A DNA stretch of 64,000 nucleotides, from positions 2,315,655-2,379,654 of the forward strand of contig NZ_CP100448.1 of NCBI RefSeq assembly GCF_024227715.1, written 5' to 3'. The translations under genes were made by a program, and so were the position numbers. Position 1 is the first letter of the stretch; each line of letters starts with the position of its first letter. Below the pieces are notes generated by a model. The model worked only from the letters and a program-made list of their open reading frames with translations. It had not been told where the DNA came from and did not search any database. Positions 1-28,916 of the stretch are shown here, one piece after another. This DNA is from Halomarina litorea. GTDB lineage: Archaea > Halobacteriota > Halobacteria > Halobacteriales > Haloarculaceae.

Positions 1-182
1 ACAAGACGAAGGTCGGCGGCGGGAGCCTCCTGTTGCTCCTCGGCACCGTCCTCATCGCCGTCCTCGCGTTCGTCTTGATGGCCACGGCCGCACAGGTCGT
101 CGTCGGCCTCCTCGGGACGCTCCTCATCGTCGTCGGGACGCTGTCCGTCGGCACCTCCGGCATCAACGGCCGGGCGGTCTGA
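1..182 (+). CDS. membrane protein, C-terminal part only
   Basis: This is the 3' end of a gene that begins before the window; the frame opens at base 3 and stops with TGA at 180-182, leaving 59 residues. They form two hydrophobic stretches of about 20 residues (Leu/Val/Ile/Ala/Gly-rich) separated by a short polar turn (ATAAQ), so at least two membrane helices, and end in a short polar tail. The sequence is too short and too generic to assign a family. The next gene runs toward it from the opposite strand. Confidence 0.6.
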   Translation, partial: KTKVGGGSLLLLLGTVLIAVLAFVLMATAAQVVVGLLGTLLIVVGTLSVGTSGINGRAV

Positions 183-206
183 GACCGGACGCCCGAGACA
201 CGCCGT

Positions 207-875
207 TCAGGACCAGCACGCTGGTATCGCGTCGAGCAAGTCGACGCGGTCGGTCGGCGTCGGTCCCCCCTCGAACGGGTCGCCCACGAGCACCGAGCGG
301 ACGCCGGCGCGGTTCGCGCCCGTGACGTCCGCCGCGCTGTCGCCCACGTGGGCCGCCTCGCCCGCGGCCACGGAGAGCGCCGACAGCGCCCGTTCGAACG
401 GTTCGACGGCCGGTTTGGCCGGTATCTCCCCGCCCGCACAGACGACCACCTCGAAGGCGTCCGACAGTCCGACCCCCTCGATTTTCGCCCGCTGTGCGTC
501 CGTCGGCCCGTTCGTCACCACGCCGAGTCGGTACGCTCCCTCCAACCGTTCGACCACCTCGCGCGCGCCCGGGAGTGCGACCACGTCCCGGTGGTCGCGT
601 TCGGCGGCGAACGCGCGCGCCACCGCCGCACCCGTCTCCGAGTCGTAGCCGCGTTCGGCCGCGAGCGCCCGGAAACACCGCTCGCGCAGGTCGGCCATCC
701 CGTTGGCCCGTTCGGCGAACTCGTCGAAGCGCTCGTAGTACGCCTCGACGGGGAACAGGGGGTCGACCCCGACCCGGTCGAAGGCGACGGCGAGGACCTC
801 GCCGGGGCTCCGGCAGTAGGTACAGAGCGTGCCGTCGAGGTCGAACGTGACCGCGCGGACGGGTGAGTCAGACAT
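207..875 (-). CDS. HAD superfamily hydrolase
   Basis: This 222-residue protein is probably a small-molecule phosphatase of the haloacid dehalogenase superfamily. All four motifs are visible: the nucleophile motif FDLDGTL (Asp12 and Asp14), Thr121 in VVTNG, Lys154 in IPAKP, and the acidic motif GDSAAD (Asp179, Asp183). The helical cap between motifs I and II (about residues 20-95) marks subfamily I. The substrate cannot be read from the sequence; phosphoglycolate- or nucleotide-phosphatase-like activities are common in this group. Its start overlaps the end of the upstream gene by 8 bp, so the two are co-transcribed, probably together with mch. Confidence 0.85.
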   Translation of the reverse strand: MSDSPVRAVTFDLDGTLCTYCRSPGEVLAVAFDRVGVDPLFPVEAYYERFDEFAERANGMADLRERCFRALAAERGYDSETGAAVARAFAAERDHRDVVALPGAREVVERLEGAYRLGVVTNGPTDAQRAKIEGVGLSDAFEVVVCAGGEIPAKPAVEPFERALSALSVAAGEAAHVGDSAADVTGANRAGVRSVLVGDPFEGGPTPTDRVDLLDAIPACWS

Positions 876-22888: not shown

Positions 22889-24616
22889 ATGGCAGACGAC
22901 GAATTCGACAGGCGGTCGTTCCTCCGACTCGCGGGCGGTGCCGCCGCGGCAGCGTCGCTCGCGGGTTGTGCCGGCGACGGTGACGGCAACGGGTCCGGGA
23001 ACGGCAACGGGTCCGGGAACGGCAACGGGTCCGGGAACGGTAACGGGTCCGGCGATGGCGAGGGGACCGACCGCCCCGAACCGCAGACGCGCGAGGAGTA
23101 CCTCCAGCGGGCGAACCTCCTCCTCCACGAGGAGGCCCCGTGGGTGTTCCTCAACCGGCAGTACAGCGTCTACGGCGTCAGCACCGACGTCCAGTGGGAG
23201 GCACGGCGCGACGAGCGAATCGACGCCTACACTATCGTCCCACAGGGGAACAAGACCTCCGTGACCATCACGCAGAGCCAGATGGACTCCGGGCTCGACC
23301 CACACGACCACCGCGAGACGCCGACCGACAACATCGTCCTCCAGTCGTACGAGGGGCTCCTGAGCAGGAACAAGGAAGGCGCCATCCAGCAGCAACTCGC
23401 GACGGGCTACGAGCGCGTCGAGCCGGGTCGGGTTCGATTTACCATCCGCGATGGCGTGACCTTCCACAGCGGGGAGACGCTCACCCCGGAGGACGTCGCC
23501 TTCTCCATCAACCGCATCGTCAAGGACGACGTCGGTGGCCTCACGAGCCCACAGCGCGACCAGCTCGCGGGCGTCACGGGTGCGACCCCCGTCGACGGCG
23601 AGCGGGCAGTCGAGGTCACCTCCGACGGTATCAACCCCATCGTCTTCCAGCAGTTCGCCACGTACTGTGACATCGTCCAGCGTCAGTGGATTCAGGACCA
23701 CGACTCGGGGTACATCAACACCCACATGAACGGGACGGGGCCGTTCATGCTCGCGAACTATCAGCAGGACGTCAGCGTTCAGTACACCCGCTACGAAGAC
23801 TACTGGAAGGAGCCGGCACCGGCCCAGTCGCTCACAATCACGGCCGCGGGCGAGTCGAGTACGCGTGTCAACCAGCTCCTCGGCGGCGAGACCGATCTCA
23901 TCGTCAACGTCCCACCACAGGACGCCCAACGCGTCCAGGGAGCCGACAGCGCCTCGCTGAGTGCGAAGCCGAGTACGCGCATCATCTACAACGCGATGGT
24001 GTACAACCGCGAGCCGTTCGACTCGGTCGCGTTCCGACAGGCGATGAACTACGCGATCGACCTGGAGAGCATCGTCCAGAACGTCCTCGCGACGTTTGCG
24101 GCACCGACCGGTCAGCCGACGCTCGAGGGGTTCGTCGGCTACAACCCCGAGGTCGAACCGTACCCCTACGATCCCGAACGCGCCCAGCAGCTGGTCGAGG
24201 AGAGCGGCTACGCGGGTGCGAGTATCACGCTACACACCCCTGTCGGACGCTACCTGAAGGACCTCGAAATCGCACAGGCGGTGGCGAATCAGATCGACGA
24301 ACTGGAGAACGTCTCCTGTAGCGTCCAGCAGCGCGACTTCCAGACGCTGGCCGGGGAACTGACCGACGGCGACATCTCGACCGGTCCCGCCTTCTACCTC
24401 ATCGGGTGGGGGAACGCGACGTTCGACGCCAGCCAGACCATCCTCCCGCTGTTGACGACTGACGGGGTACTGACGTCTTACAGCAACGAGCGCGTCGACG
24501 AGCTGATGCGTCAGGCACAGAGCATGGCCGGGACCACGCCCGGCGATGGGGGTAGCGGGTCGAACTCGACTAGCACGGACAGCGCCAACGCCAGCGGCAA
24601 CACGAGCGGCGAGTGA
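22889..24616 (+). CDS. ABC transporter solute-binding lipoprotein, family 5, apparently circularly permuted
   Basis: This 575-residue binding protein of a peptide/nickel-type importer starts with a Tat lipoprotein signal (Arg8-Arg9 in RRSFLRL, lipobox LAGC with Cys27) and a GNGSG repeat linker (to about 57). Residues about 66-116 (EEYLQRANLLLHEEAPWVFL, then YGV-DV-W-R-DERIDAY) match what is normally the C-terminal segment of SBP_bac_5 proteins. The usual mature N-terminus follows at about 123 (SVTITQSQMDSGLDPHD), and the protein ends after YSNERVDELMRQAQ, just where that segment would normally continue, with a Ser/Asn/Thr tail. This is the order expected of a circular permutation. First gene of the five-gene operon. 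Confidence 0.9.
   Translation: MADDEFDRRSFLRLAGGAAAAASLAGCAGDGDGNGSGNGNGSGNGNGSGNGNGSGDGEGTDRPEPQTREEYLQRANLLLHEEAPWVFLNRQYSVYGVSTDVQWEARRDERIDAYTIVPQGNKTSVTITQSQMDSGLDPHDHRETPTDNIVLQSYEGLLSRNKEGAIQQQLATGYERVEPGRVRFTIRDGVTFHSGETLTPEDVAFSINRIVKDDVGGLTSPQRDQLAGVTGATPVDGERAVEVTSDGINPIVFQQFATYCDIVQRQWIQDHDSGYINTHMNGTGPFMLANYQQDVSVQYTRYEDYWKEPAPAQSLTITAAGESSTRVNQLLGGETDLIVNVPPQDAQRVQGADSASLSAKPSTRIIYNAMVYNREPFDSVAFRQAMNYAIDLESIVQNVLATFAAPTGQPTLEGFVGYNPEVEPYPYDPERAQQLVEESGYAGASITLHTPVGRYLKDLEIAQAVANQIDELENVSCSVQQRDFQTLAGELTDGDISTGPAFYLIGWGNATFDASQTILPLLTTDGVLTSYSNERVDELMRQAQSMAGTTPGDGGSGSNSTSTDSANASGNTSGE
22985..23056 (+). repeat. 18-bp tandem repeat, four units
   Basis: Three identical units of GGCAACGGGTCCGGGAAC (22985, 23003, 23021) and a fourth with three changes encode the GNGSGN linker after the lipobox of the binding protein. 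The identity at DNA level suggests slippage and length variation. Confidence 0.85.
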
Positions 24617-24639: not shown

Positions 24640-25623
24640 ATGTCGTTCGGCCGGTTCCTCCTGAAGCGACTCCTCCAGGGAGTCGTGGTCGTCTGGGGGG
24701 TCATCACCGTGGTGTTCCTGTTGCGGTTCATCACGCCCGGCAGCCCCGTGGATGTCGTCGCACCGCTCGATGCGAGCGCCGAGCTTCGCAGACAGATTGC
24801 CCGCGAACTGGGCGTCAACCAGCCGCTGTACGTCCAGTACACCGAGTACCTGCTCGGCGTCGTCCAGGGCGACTGGGGATACTCGTACATCTCGCGGACG
24901 GAGGCGAGCGCACGCGTCTTCGCCCGACTCCCAGCGACGGTCGAACTCGCCGCGAGCGCGACCGTCGTCGCGGTAGTGCTATCGATACCACTCGGCGTCG
25001 TCAGCGCGACGCGGCGCAACCAGCCCGCAGACTACGGCGCGACGACGTTCTCGCTGCTCGGTATCTCGACGCCGAACTTCTGGCTCGGCATCATGCTCAT
25101 CCTCCTGTTGGGGGTGCAGTTCGAAGTGTTCCCGGTCGGAGGACGCGGCGTCGGGTTCCTGCCGGCGCTGGGTATGCTCCTCGTCGGAAACCCGGGTGGG
25201 ATAGTCAACTGGCTCGCACACATCACGCTCCCGGCGATCACCCTCGGGACGTACTTCACGGCGCTCATCACCCGCCTGACGCGCAGCGGGATGCTCGACC
25301 AACTGGGCCGGTCGTACGTCCGGGCCACACGCGCGAAGGGGCTCCCCGAGACGCTCGTCCGGTACCGCCACGTCCTGCGGAACACGCTCATCCCGGTCGT
25401 CACGGTCGTGGGCCTCCAGATGGGGACGCTCATCGGCGGGGCGGTCATCACGGAGGCCGTCTTCGACTGGCCCGGCCTCGGAACGACGGTCATCAATTCC
25501 ATCAACCAACGCGACTGGCCCGTCCTCCAGGGGGCACTCATCGTCATCGGGGTCGGCTTCGTCGTCGTGAACATCGCCGTGGACGCGCTGTACGCGTATC
25601 TCAACCCCCGGGTGGTCGAATGA
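24640..25623 (+). CDS. ABC transporter permease, DppB/OppB type
   Basis: The 327-residue inner-membrane protein has six helices and the family start (RFLLKRLLQGVVVVWGVITVVFLL), the OppB_DppB N-terminal region with PLYVQYTEYLLGVVQGDWGYSY, and the cytoplasmic EAA-type loop YVRATRAKGLPETLVRYRHVLRN that docks to the ATPases. It ends in ATGA, overlapping the start of the second permease by 4 bp. Confidence 0.95.
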   Translation: MSFGRFLLKRLLQGVVVVWGVITVVFLLRFITPGSPVDVVAPLDASAELRRQIARELGVNQPLYVQYTEYLLGVVQGDWGYSYISRTEASARVFARLPATVELAASATVVAVVLSIPLGVVSATRRNQPADYGATTFSLLGISTPNFWLGIMLILLLGVQFEVFPVGGRGVGFLPALGMLLVGNPGGIVNWLAHITLPAITLGTYFTALITRLTRSGMLDQLGRSYVRATRAKGLPETLVRYRHVLRNTLIPVVTVVGLQMGTLIGGAVITEAVFDWPGLGTTVINSINQRDWPVLQGALIVIGVGFVVVNIAVDALYAYLNPRVVE

Positions 25624-26636
25624 TCTCCCCGCGGACGCTCAGAAACCTGAAACGCGAACTCCGCCGGAGTGCGCTGGCGAAGACCGGCATCGTCCTCGTC
25701 CTCGCCGTCGTGCTCGTGGCGACGTTCGCGCCGCTGCTCGCGCCGCACAACCCGCGAACACAGGACCTGGACGAGAAGCGCCTGCCACCGCTCGGCTTCA
25801 GCGGCACGGAGAACCAGACGACGACGGAGTTCGTCAACGGCTCCGTACAGGTCGTCACGGAGAACGTCACCGTCAACGCGACGCTGGAACACCCCCTCGG
25901 GACGAACGCGCTCGGCCAGGACATGCTCTCGCGGGTCATCTACGGCGCGCGGACCTCGTTGCTGGTGGGACTGCTGGGGACGACGCTCGCGATGCTCATC
26001 GGCGTCCCCATCGGTCTCGTCGCGGGGTACTACCGCGGGCGAATCGACGACGCGCTGATGCGAAGTGCGGACGTCATGCTCGCGTTCCCGTCGCTCGTCC
26101 TCGCCATCGCCCTCGTGGGGCTGTGGGGGCGGGCGGCGGTTCCCATCCCGGACCCGTTCGTCATCTTCGGCCTCGCGCCGGAGATGCCCGCGACGTTCAC
26201 GCTCCCGGGGACGGTCATCGTCGTCGTCGGCCTCGTCACGTGGGTGTGGTTCGCGCGCGTCGCACGGGGGGAGGCCCTCTCGGTGCGCGAGGAGGAGTAC
26301 GTCAAAGCCGCCCGCAGTCTGGGCGCGAAAGACCGCTTCGTCATCCGAAAACACATCCTTCCGAACAGTGCAACGCCAATCCTCGTCCTCGCGACCATCC
26401 AGGTGGCGGCCATCATCCTCCTGGAGAGCGCGCTGTCGTTCCTCGGGTTCTCGGGCACCACGCTCTCGTGGGGCTTCGACATCTCCCAGGGGCGTGATTA
26501 CCTCGCCACGGCGTGGTGGATCGCCACGATGCCAGGTATCGCCATCGTCCTCACCGTCATCGGCATCAACCTCATCGGTGACTGGTTGCGCGACGCCCTC
26601 GACCCCGGCATCCAGGGGGAGGGAGGTGGCGCATGA
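25620..26636 (+). CDS. ABC transporter permease, DppC/OppC type
   Basis: The 338-residue partner permease has an N-terminal helix (GIVLVLAVVLVATFAPLLA), a periplasm-facing loop of about 60 residues with N-x-T/S sites, then LGTNALGQDMLSRVIYGARTSL, the DppC signature, and the EAA loop EYVKAARSLGAKDRFVIRKHILPN. The ATG at 25620 overlaps the preceding stop; the longer open frame upstream lies inside the previous gene and is not used. It overlaps the next gene by 4 bp. Confidence 0.95.
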   Translation: MISPRTLRNLKRELRRSALAKTGIVLVLAVVLVATFAPLLAPHNPRTQDLDEKRLPPLGFSGTENQTTTEFVNGSVQVVTENVTVNATLEHPLGTNALGQDMLSRVIYGARTSLLVGLLGTTLAMLIGVPIGLVAGYYRGRIDDALMRSADVMLAFPSLVLAIALVGLWGRAAVPIPDPFVIFGLAPEMPATFTLPGTVIVVVGLVTWVWFARVARGEALSVREEEYVKAARSLGAKDRFVIRKHILPNSATPILVLATIQVAAIILLESALSFLGFSGTTLSWGFDISQGRDYLATAWWIATMPGIAIVLTVIGINLIGDWLRDALDPGIQGEGGGA

Positions 26637-27853
26637 CCGGCGGTGGCCCGCGGGACCTCCTGCGCGTCGAGGGGCTCTCGACGTCCTTCTTCACCGAGGA
26701 GGGACAGGTCAACGCGGTGGAGTCCGTGAGCTTCGACGTGCGCGACGGCGAAATCCTCGGCATCGTCGGCGAGTCGGGGTCCGGCAAGTCGGTGACGGCG
26801 CTGTCGCTCATCGACCTCGTCGAGTCGCCCGGGCGCATCAGGGACGGGGAGGTGTGGTACCGCAACCCCGACCTCGCGGGCGAGTTCCCCGACGCCGCCG
26901 ACGGCGACTTCGTGGACCTCCGGCAGGTCCCGAAGGGGGTCCGACGCGCCCTCAGAGGCCCGTCGTTCAGCATGGTGTTTCAGGACCCGATGAGCAGTTT
27001 CAACCCCTCCATCACGGTCGGCGAGCAGATCGCCGAGGCCGTGGAGGTCCAGCGCCGGGCGCGGTCGAACCCCCGGTCGACCCGGTCGCGGACGCAGGGC
27101 TACGGACTGGGACGTCTCGTCCTCGACAGCGTCGTCCCCGGGCGCGGGTACACCGACGAGGCGAGCCACGCCCGCGCGGTGGAGTTGCTCGAACAGGTGG
27201 GCATCCCGGACCCGGCCGACCGGGCCGACGAGTACCCCCACCAGTTCTCGGGGGGGATGCTCCAGCGCGCGATGATCGCGCAGGCGCTGGCCGGCGAACC
27301 GGACCTGCTCATCGCGGACGAACCGACGACGGCGCTGGACGTGACGATTCAGGCCCAGATTCTGAACCTCCTGTCCGACCTGCAGGAGGAACGCGGGATG
27401 AGCGTCGTCCTCATCACGCACGACCTCGGCGTCATCGCCCGGATGTGCGACCGAGTCTGCGTGATGTACGCCGGTGAAGTGGTCGAGCGGGGGACGCTGG
27501 AGGACGTCTTCGACGACCCGGTCCACCCCTACACGCAGGGGCTCCTCGGGTCCATTCCGGACCTCGACGACCCGTCGCCGCGCCTCCAGCCCATCGAGGG
27601 GAACGTCCCCTCGCTGCTGGCGAGCGAGATGGGCGACCGCTGTTACTTCGCGGACCGCTGTCCGAAGGCGATGTACGAGTGTCTCGACAAGCCGCCGGAG
27701 TTCCCGGCGGGCGGGGAGGAACACCGGGCGAAGTGCGTCCTCGCGGACCACAAGTTCGACCCGAGCGAGGCGCTCCCCGAGGACTACTTCGAGGCCGGCG
27801 CGCCCGCCGACCGTGAGGGCGGGCGCGCCGAGGGGGTGAGCGACGATGACTGA
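26633..27853 (+). CDS. ABC transporter ATP-binding protein, DppD/OppD type
   Basis: The 406-residue ATPase has Walker [10 protein letters not shown]-loop, signature [10 protein letters not shown], Walker B LLIADEPT and the switch His in LITHDLG. It is longer than usual through an insert of about 35 residues (Arg-rich, [15 protein letters not shown]) before the signature and a C-terminal oligopeptide-transporter extension with a Cys cluster ([14 protein letters not shown] and a later Cys) that in related proteins holds an Fe-S cluster. The last seven bases overlap the next gene. Confidence 0.95.
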
Positions 27854-28916
27854 CCCGCTCGTGCGCGTCGAGGACCTCAAGAAGTACTACTTCGAACGGG
27901 ACACGCTCATCGACCGCATGCTCGGGCGGGAGCCGCGGAGCGTGAAGGCCGTCGACGGCGTGAGCTTCGAACTCGAACCCGGTGAGACGCTGGGGCTCGT
28001 CGGCGAGTCCGGCTGTGGGAAGTCCACGACCGGCGAGACGCTCCTCGCTCTGCGCGAGGCGACCGAGGGTCGGGTGCTGTTCGACGGCGAGGACGTCTTC
28101 GCCATGTCCGACGGCGAGCGCCGCGAGTTCCGCAAGCGGGCGCAGGTGGTCTTCCAGGACCCCTTCTCCAGTCTCGACCCGCGCCAGACGGTCGGCGAGA
28201 TCATCACCGAACCGCTGGTCATCCACGGCATCGCGGACCGACAGGAGCGTCGCGAGCGCGCGAAGGACCTGCTCGAACGCGTGGGGCTCTCGGCGGGACA
28301 GATCGACCGCTACCCCCACGAGTTCTCGGGCGGCCAGCGTCAGCGGGTCGGCATCGCCCGCGCGCTGGCGCTCGAACCGGAGTTCGTCGTGCTCGACGAA
28401 CCCGTCTCCGCGCTGGACGTGAGCGTGCAGGCCCAGATCCTCAATCTGCTCGAGGACCTGCAGGACCAGCTCGGTCTCACCTACCTGTTCATCGCCCACG
28501 ACCTCTCGGTGGTCCGGCACATCTCCGACCGCGTGGCCGTGATGTACCTCGGGGAGATCGTCGAGACCGGCGAGGTGGACGACATCTTCGAGGACCCCCA
28601 GCACCCCTACACGCAGGCGTTGCTGGAGAGCGTCCCGCGGGCGAGCACCGCCGAACACGGCCGTCGGGTGGACGCCCTCGCGGGCGACGTCCCCTCCCCG
28701 CGGAACCCGCCGTCGGGGTGTCACTTCCACACCCGCTGTCCGTACGCGCGCGAGACGTGCCGCGAGCGGGAACCGGACGCGTACGACGCGGGGGATGGTC
28801 AGCAGGCGGCCTGTTTCCGCCTCGTCGAGGACCACCCCTACTGGGAGTCCGAACCCATCGAGCAGGCCGCGACGGACGGACCCGCGGGCGAGTCGGCGAC
28901 CGGCGAGGCGGACTAA
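27846..28916 (+). CDS. ABC transporter ATP-binding protein, DppF/OppF type
   Basis: The 356-residue second ATPase shows Walker A GESGCGKST, signature FSGGQRQRV, Walker B VVLDEPVSAL, His in FIAHDLS, and the C-terminal CHFHTRCPYARETC cluster. It heterodimerises with the preceding ATPase to drive uptake of the ligand held by the lipoprotein. Last gene of the operon; its stop overlaps the stop of the convergent VOC gene by 4 bp. Confidence 0.95.
   Translation: MTDPLVRVEDLKKYYFERDTLIDRMLGREPRSVKAVDGVSFELEPGETLGLVGESGCGKSTTGETLLALREATEGRVLFDGEDVFAMSDGERREFRKRAQVVFQDPFSSLDPRQTVGEIITEPLVIHGIADRQERRERAKDLLERVGLSAGQIDRYPHEFSGGQRQRVGIARALALEPEFVVLDEPVSALDVSVQAQILNLLEDLQDQLGLTYLFIAHDLSVVRHISDRVAVMYLGEIVETGEVDDIFEDPQHPYTQALLESVPRASTAEHGRRVDALAGDVPSPRNPPSGCHFHTRCPYARETCREREPDAYDAGDGQQAACFRLVEDHPYWESEPIEQAATDGPAGESATGEAD

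Follow-up and report, generated by a model that had tools for sequence, protein, structure and literature searches.

A family 5 solute-binding protein gene and its operon

The window (the whole stretch of 64,000 nucleotides of Halomarina litorea DNA that was analysed) contains a gene for a family 5 solute-binding protein, followed on the same strand by permease and ATPase genes. The features are given below; HMM positions refer to a model of relatives with ordinary chain order.

22889..24616, + strand: gene of the solute-binding protein (SBP_bac_5), read here as permuted; 575 amino acids plus stop
22889..22969, + strand: signal carrying an RR motif and a lipobox-like LAGC whose last residue is Cys27 (residues 1-27), read from the sequence
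22970..23068, + strand: linker rich in Gly, Asn, Ser and Asp (residues 28-60), read from the sequence
23069..23236, + strand: relocated segment, residues 61-116 (REEYLQRANLLLHEEAPWVFLNRQYSVYG...DERI); HMM 423-478 of 481, 66.7 bits
23237..23251, + strand: joint between the old C- and N-termini, residues 117-121; no linker of ordinary length
23252..24529, + strand: core, residues 122-547, beginning with the ordinary N-terminus and running to the helix VDELMRQAQS; HMM 2-425 of 481, 690.5 bits
24530..24613, + strand: low-complexity tail past the new C-terminus, residues 548-575, read from the sequence
24640..25623, + strand: DppB/OppB-like permease; NF045470, 310.3 bits, under the cut-off of 350
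25620..26636, + strand: DppC/OppC-like permease (start approximate); NF045476, 252.4 bits, under the cut-off of 350
26633..27853, + strand: DppD/OppD-like ATPase; NF008246, 318.3 bits, under the cut-off of 541
27846..28916, + strand: DppF/OppF-like ATPase; NF008453, 418.5 bits, over the cut-off of 408

The window protein matched PF00496 (SBP_bac_5) over residues 166-525 with 219.6 bits (cut-off 32.4), and none of the NCBIfam models for solute-binding proteins reached its cut-off on it. The match of PF10518 to the signal region (E 0.0014, 18.9 bits) remained under the cut-off of 22.7; from the sequence, we infer a signal of the Tat lipoprotein type. Near-identical repeats (aacgggtccgggaacggc) encode the linker at window positions 22980-23050, and it is possible that they are a site of slippage or recombination.

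With two permeases and two ATPases encoded downstream, the gene has the setting of an SBP_bac_5 operon; the preliminary description of this DNA had spoken of an intact ABC operon. An alignment to E. coli DppA showed that Arg383 is kept in the window protein and that the position equivalent to Asp436 is not Asp. In the available part of PMC12136057, Arg383 of DppA binds the ligand carboxylate, and Arg383 and Asp436 are the salt-bridge partners of the bound dipeptide. We can only guess that the ligand of the window protein bears a carboxylate and is perhaps peptide-like.

Chain order in the window protein and its relatives

The canonical HMM (481 positions) was built solely from 61 ordinary-order relatives. 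The window protein covers the ordinary fold once, with the order swapped: the two matches listed above abut at HMM 423-425, and the joint comes right after the ordinary last residues with almost no loss and no doubling. The segment that normally ends family 5 proteins had previously been placed at about residues 66-116, with the ordinary N-terminus coming next; both statements held, the limits of the segment being refined to 61-116. In BLAST searches the segment mapped to the C-terminus of ordinary relatives, with 54-69% identity where core identity was 60-72%. The chain had also been said to stop exactly where this segment should come. The core does end there, at residue 547, but 28 unmatched residues follow YSNERVDELMRQAQ; neither a family match nor a second copy of the segment was found in this tail by BLAST or the ordinary-order HMM. 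The two outcomes that would have refuted the earlier proposal, an N-terminal location of the segment in ordinary members and a whole copy of it at the real chain end, were absent.

When the segment alone was compared with the canonical HMM, it scored 54.1-78.3 bits in all 52 proteins classed as permuted, whereas 172 of 5000 shuffled sequences of the same composition scored above 0, with a maximum of 7.4 bits. A domain-order filter returned a separate N-terminal piece in 50 of these 52 proteins. When the permuted and the ordinary alignment were compared profile to profile, the core paired and the N-terminal segment remained unpaired, as expected of a sequential aligner. Ten residues of the segment were invariant in 42 permuted sequences (P26, L30, Q33, S35, Y37, G38, W45, R48, D50 and E51, model numbering), and a phmmer comparison with 3m8u added a third, weak match (query 68-91 to chain 456-479). 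PF00496 cannot reveal the permutation in the window protein, since the model ends ahead of the tail segment. The window protein lacks the ordinary chain order of SBP_bac_5, its tail segment not being C-terminal, and is therefore filed as a permuted variant and not as an ordinary member of this family.

The census comprised 125 distinct relatives kept from 185 loci, which were classed by the position of the segment (residues 62-121 of P0001 and a group B copy) relative to the core. In 52 of them the segment preceded the core and in 61 it followed the core; the other 12 were bacterial rows without a segment match and remained unclassified. ORFs with a core match of fewer than 380 residues or ending before core position 410 were left out (L115, L119, L121 and L131 were among those dropped on these grounds), as were duplicates with the same core. 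One of these, the ordinary-order relative L119 (7686-9345), is spread across two overlapping frames, which reflects a frameshift or a sequencing error. Named isolates whose chromosomes are complete (Halorarius halobius, Halosimplex aquaticum and Halosimplex pelagicum) are among the sources of the 52 distinct proteins with the same permuted order as the window protein, and the nearest ordinary-order relatives are about 72% identical to the window protein over the core. In a profile search of the whole phylum (392 genomes, E <= 1e-60), full-length permuted matches were confined to the same taxonomic order, and none of the 115 plasmid records that matched at E <= 1e-40 spanned over 80% of the query.

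Permuted and ordinary genes both precede the same kind of B, C, D and F genes, and the permease B directly downstream of the ordinary relatives L026, L076 and L088 is 71-76% identical to that of the window. On this basis, one orthologous operon carries either chain order. No permease B match was found at L020, L111 and L112; in this comparison some genes were out of reach at loci that were short or near a contig end.

History of the chain order and a second cut site

Core trees divided the permuted proteins between two groups: A, the larger one (Halomarina, Halosimplex, Halorarius, Halobaculum, Halorubrum and others), and B, which has fewer members and a core identity of 42-46% to the window protein; each was mixed with or placed beside ordinary members. 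We had expected beforehand that all permuted rows share a single origin, in which case one ancient permutation would have been followed by reversals to the ordinary order inside the group. Placing all permuted rows in one clade was rejected (p-AU 3.6e-56, 29 of 57 rows), and the core tree would require many such reversals. The permease B tree (69 rows, a quick tree) also speaks against a single event, as it unites the permuted and ordinary B operons with a support of 99, apart from A, and the segments of permuted B proteins are on average closer to those of ordinary B members (55-61% identity) than to those of permuted A proteins (46-49%). On the other hand, a single clade of the permuted A rows could not be rejected (p-AU 0.41, 15 of 49 rows); the ordinary trio L028/L031/L032 nests only weakly inside this group. 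In addition, the permuted B proteins have a common leader (E/T-Y/F-D-G/E-EL-P/A-E/D-DP) that was not seen in ordinary B members, which suggests one event in B followed by one or two returns. A single clade of the permuted B rows was rejected more weakly (p-AU 0.0055, 5 of 49 rows), in a test for which the group was defined after the first tree had been seen. The shared leader and this test disagree, and the number of events within B is therefore left open.

Separate trees of the two core halves kept the B clade intact (support 100 and 74), with 4 and 6 order changes, and the tree of the 47-residue segment had little resolution; the tree of 76 rows was a quick tree. Our reading is that two independent events occurred at the same loop, one in A and one in B, with one or two possible returns in B. 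A single ancient event is unlikely, yet cannot be strictly ruled out.

Another loop, lying some 80-90 residues before the cut of the window protein, was found to be opened in haloarchaea and also in one class of Bacillota. A family 5 protein from a Symbiobacterium MAG (L121:7644-9242, + strand) is permuted at this other loop: it has a lipoprotein-like signal, begins with what is C-terminal in the ordinary chain and ends in ...REAGYRTE. Against 5u4o, its residues 200-531 aligned to 41-360 (9.5e-44) and residues 48-185 to 368-507 (7.1e-15). It lies in its own B, C, D, F-like operon (gene names read by eye), and at least 30 of the 154 genomes in its class have a relative whose match begins at or before query position 39 and reaches 530 or beyond. 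All nine relatives that were fetched (L198-L206) had the swapped order by HMM, L202 being scored over a frame shortened by a stop.

Among 26 fetched haloarchaeal stretches with an early-ending Pfam match (L238-L263), 16 were flagged as permuted at the second site; L261 and L262 had the ordinary order in the stretch examined. Four candidates for further cut types (L264-L267) turned out to be ordinary. The window genome also contains a gene flagged as permuted at the second site (L208), the reverse-strand frame with the solute-binding protein match of G000:C1:3082980-3084605, which is the first gene of an operon containing permease and ATPase genes. A further gene of this genome, L003 (736-2514), lies beside a gene for a PAP2-like membrane protein (named by eye). 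A set of 13 N-terminal regions that includes L003 matched ordinary C-terminal halves by hhalign (probability 98.6, E 8e-16), whereas the same regions reached 64.1 over 25 columns against ordinary N-terminal halves; L253 was left out of this test. On this weaker, profile-level evidence, L003 is probably permuted at the second cut as well. Thus, four family 5 genes were found in the window genome: one ordinary (L001), the window gene with the first cut, L208 with the second, and L003. The permutation is no isolated case, being both conserved and recurrent, and a second cut site exists.

As for the origin of the swapped order, permutation by duplication has been described (PMC3320104, of which a part was available) and predicts fused tandem copies. 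The window gene most likely arose in this way from a tandem fused gene pair, in which the first copy would have lost its core behind the signal and linker and the second copy its last segment. In a related genome, a 1582-codon open frame (L268; G046:C1, ~2362113-2366858, minus strand) has a single RR signal and two consecutive SBP_bac_5 domains, the second without a signal of its own. As judged from its sequence, this frame is an instance of such a fusion among the family 5 proteins of haloarchaea; it belongs to a distant subfamily and is therefore not shown to be an ancestor. None of the 125 distinct relatives carries both segment copies in one protein or ORF, and a direct intermediate within the window subfamily is therefore lacking.

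Predicted fold, interpretation and known systems

An AlphaFold model of residues 59-552 of the window protein (42 sequences) had a pLDDT of 89.3 and a pTM of 0.87, the blocks of the segment reaching 90-95; the ordinary relative L026 (46 sequences) gave 94.4 and 0.89. The relocated segment corresponds to the helix and strands that close ordinary family members and that lie at 10-40 of the permuted model (residues 68-98): elements 10-24, 27-29 and 31-40 correspond to 440-457 and 460-473 of the L026 model. VIA-align, an alignment that keeps sequence order, matched 65..492 of the permuted model to 1..453 of 1dpp (507 residues; Z 28.2, rmsd 3.4, 421 aligned), and 16..494 of the ordinary model to 1..507 (Z 41.7, rmsd 3.2, 473 aligned). 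The comparison with 1uqw (Z 29.8) likewise extended over the core, the segment not being superposed. The best Foldseek matches of the permuted model were family 5 solute-binding proteins, and over the core it has the DppA/OppA fold. The window chain is thus predicted to fold as an ordinary two-lobe protein, with the position of the segment in space resting on prediction only.

The domain limits of OppA are 1-44, 169-270 and 487-517 for domain I and 271-486 for domain III, and in OppA and DppA the old chain ends are adjacent, both in domain I; the preliminary description had laid stress on this meeting of the ends in lobe I. The cut of the window protein falls near OppA residue 460 and mature DppA residue 453, which by these limits we take to be in domain III, in the other lobe. 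We infer that the lipid anchor would move with the new ends to domain III of that lobe. Among proteins with a lipobox-like motif, the median linker length was 36 residues in the 50 permuted and likewise in the 50 ordinary ones, so a change in tether length is unsupported.

It is also conceivable that the order is indeed permuted and that the N-terminal segment complements the fold of an adjacent molecule in place of its own, giving a domain-swapped oligomer. A flexible linker precedes the segment, the joint is short, and nothing excludes such a swap; however, the single-chain model is confident across both segment and joint, and cluster C proteins usually act as monomers, which makes this arrangement very improbable. 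A frameshift, an assembly error or a chance likeness of the N-terminal extension was rejected by BLAST, the shuffle control and the census of 52 distinct proteins in many genomes, complete chromosomes of named isolates included, and with nothing found in its favour we consider such an artefact negligible.

We conclude, with a probability of roughly 0.9, that the product of the window gene is a solute-binding lipoprotein of family 5 (cluster C, DppA/OppA-like) that has been circularly permuted in nature, and whose fold and function have not been measured. Both parts are homologous to the ordinary protein, in swapped order and with single coverage, which is what a circular permutant should show. 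Circular permutation, as first suggested in the preliminary description, was the sole reading found for a complete fold in swapped order that is conserved across 52 distinct proteins and has orthologues of ordinary order within the same operon. Most likely this is a working lipoprotein with its new ends in the C-terminal lobe, its function being inferred. The last 55-60 residues of the ordinary chain stand after the signal and linker and are fused directly to the ordinary N-terminus, with the old ends presumably meeting in lobe I, and the new chain end is the point where the ordinary chain goes into the relocated segment. Ligand binding by the usual flytrap closure and delivery to the adjacent DppBCDF-like permease are inferred as well; expression, export, binding and transport are untested.

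On a broader scale, we somewhat favor the view that family 5 proteins were permuted at least three times (twice at the loop of the window protein, in A and B, and at least once at the second loop), each event opening the C-terminal lobe. In this scenario the membrane anchor would leave lobe I for the other lobe with no change in binding site or permease, making tether position evolvable. The permuted and ordinary orthologues, up to ~72% identical over the core, occur in the same operon and the same archaeal order, and the change was seemingly repeated; such matched natural pairs allow one to ask whether chain order affects folding in high salt, export, tethering or permease docking. A profile that ends before the tail, such as PF00496, hides permutations: three of the four family 5 genes found in the window genome appear permuted, one of them on the weaker evidence.

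The form had been called rarely described. This stands for family 5, as no permuted member was found described in the literature searched (most subscription journals were outside its coverage), but permuted solute-binding proteins are already known in other clusters. Compared with family 5/cluster C proteins (DppA, OppA, NikA, GsiB; PF00496), the window protein is alike in Pfam match, fold match, Arg383 and operon make-up, and differs in that the last segment comes first and the new ends lie at about DppA residue 453. The two earlier cases are remote pairs, as far as the available parts of their sources indicate. Circular permutation among SBP-fold proteins links the glycine betaine-binding, molybdate-binding and CysB proteins (PMC2395249), which share <24% identity and belong to clusters other than that of the window protein. 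TpMglB-2 (Tp0684) of Treponema pallidum, a circularly permuted protein that binds glucose and changes conformation, is, like the window protein, a natural tethered solute-binding protein of permuted topology in an ABC operon (PMC4990184). However, its permuted part is only 13% identical to the ordinary counterpart, whereas the window protein has ordinary orthologues with up to 72% identity over the core, and it belongs to cluster B, whereas the window family belongs to cluster C, with more than one event and two cut sites.
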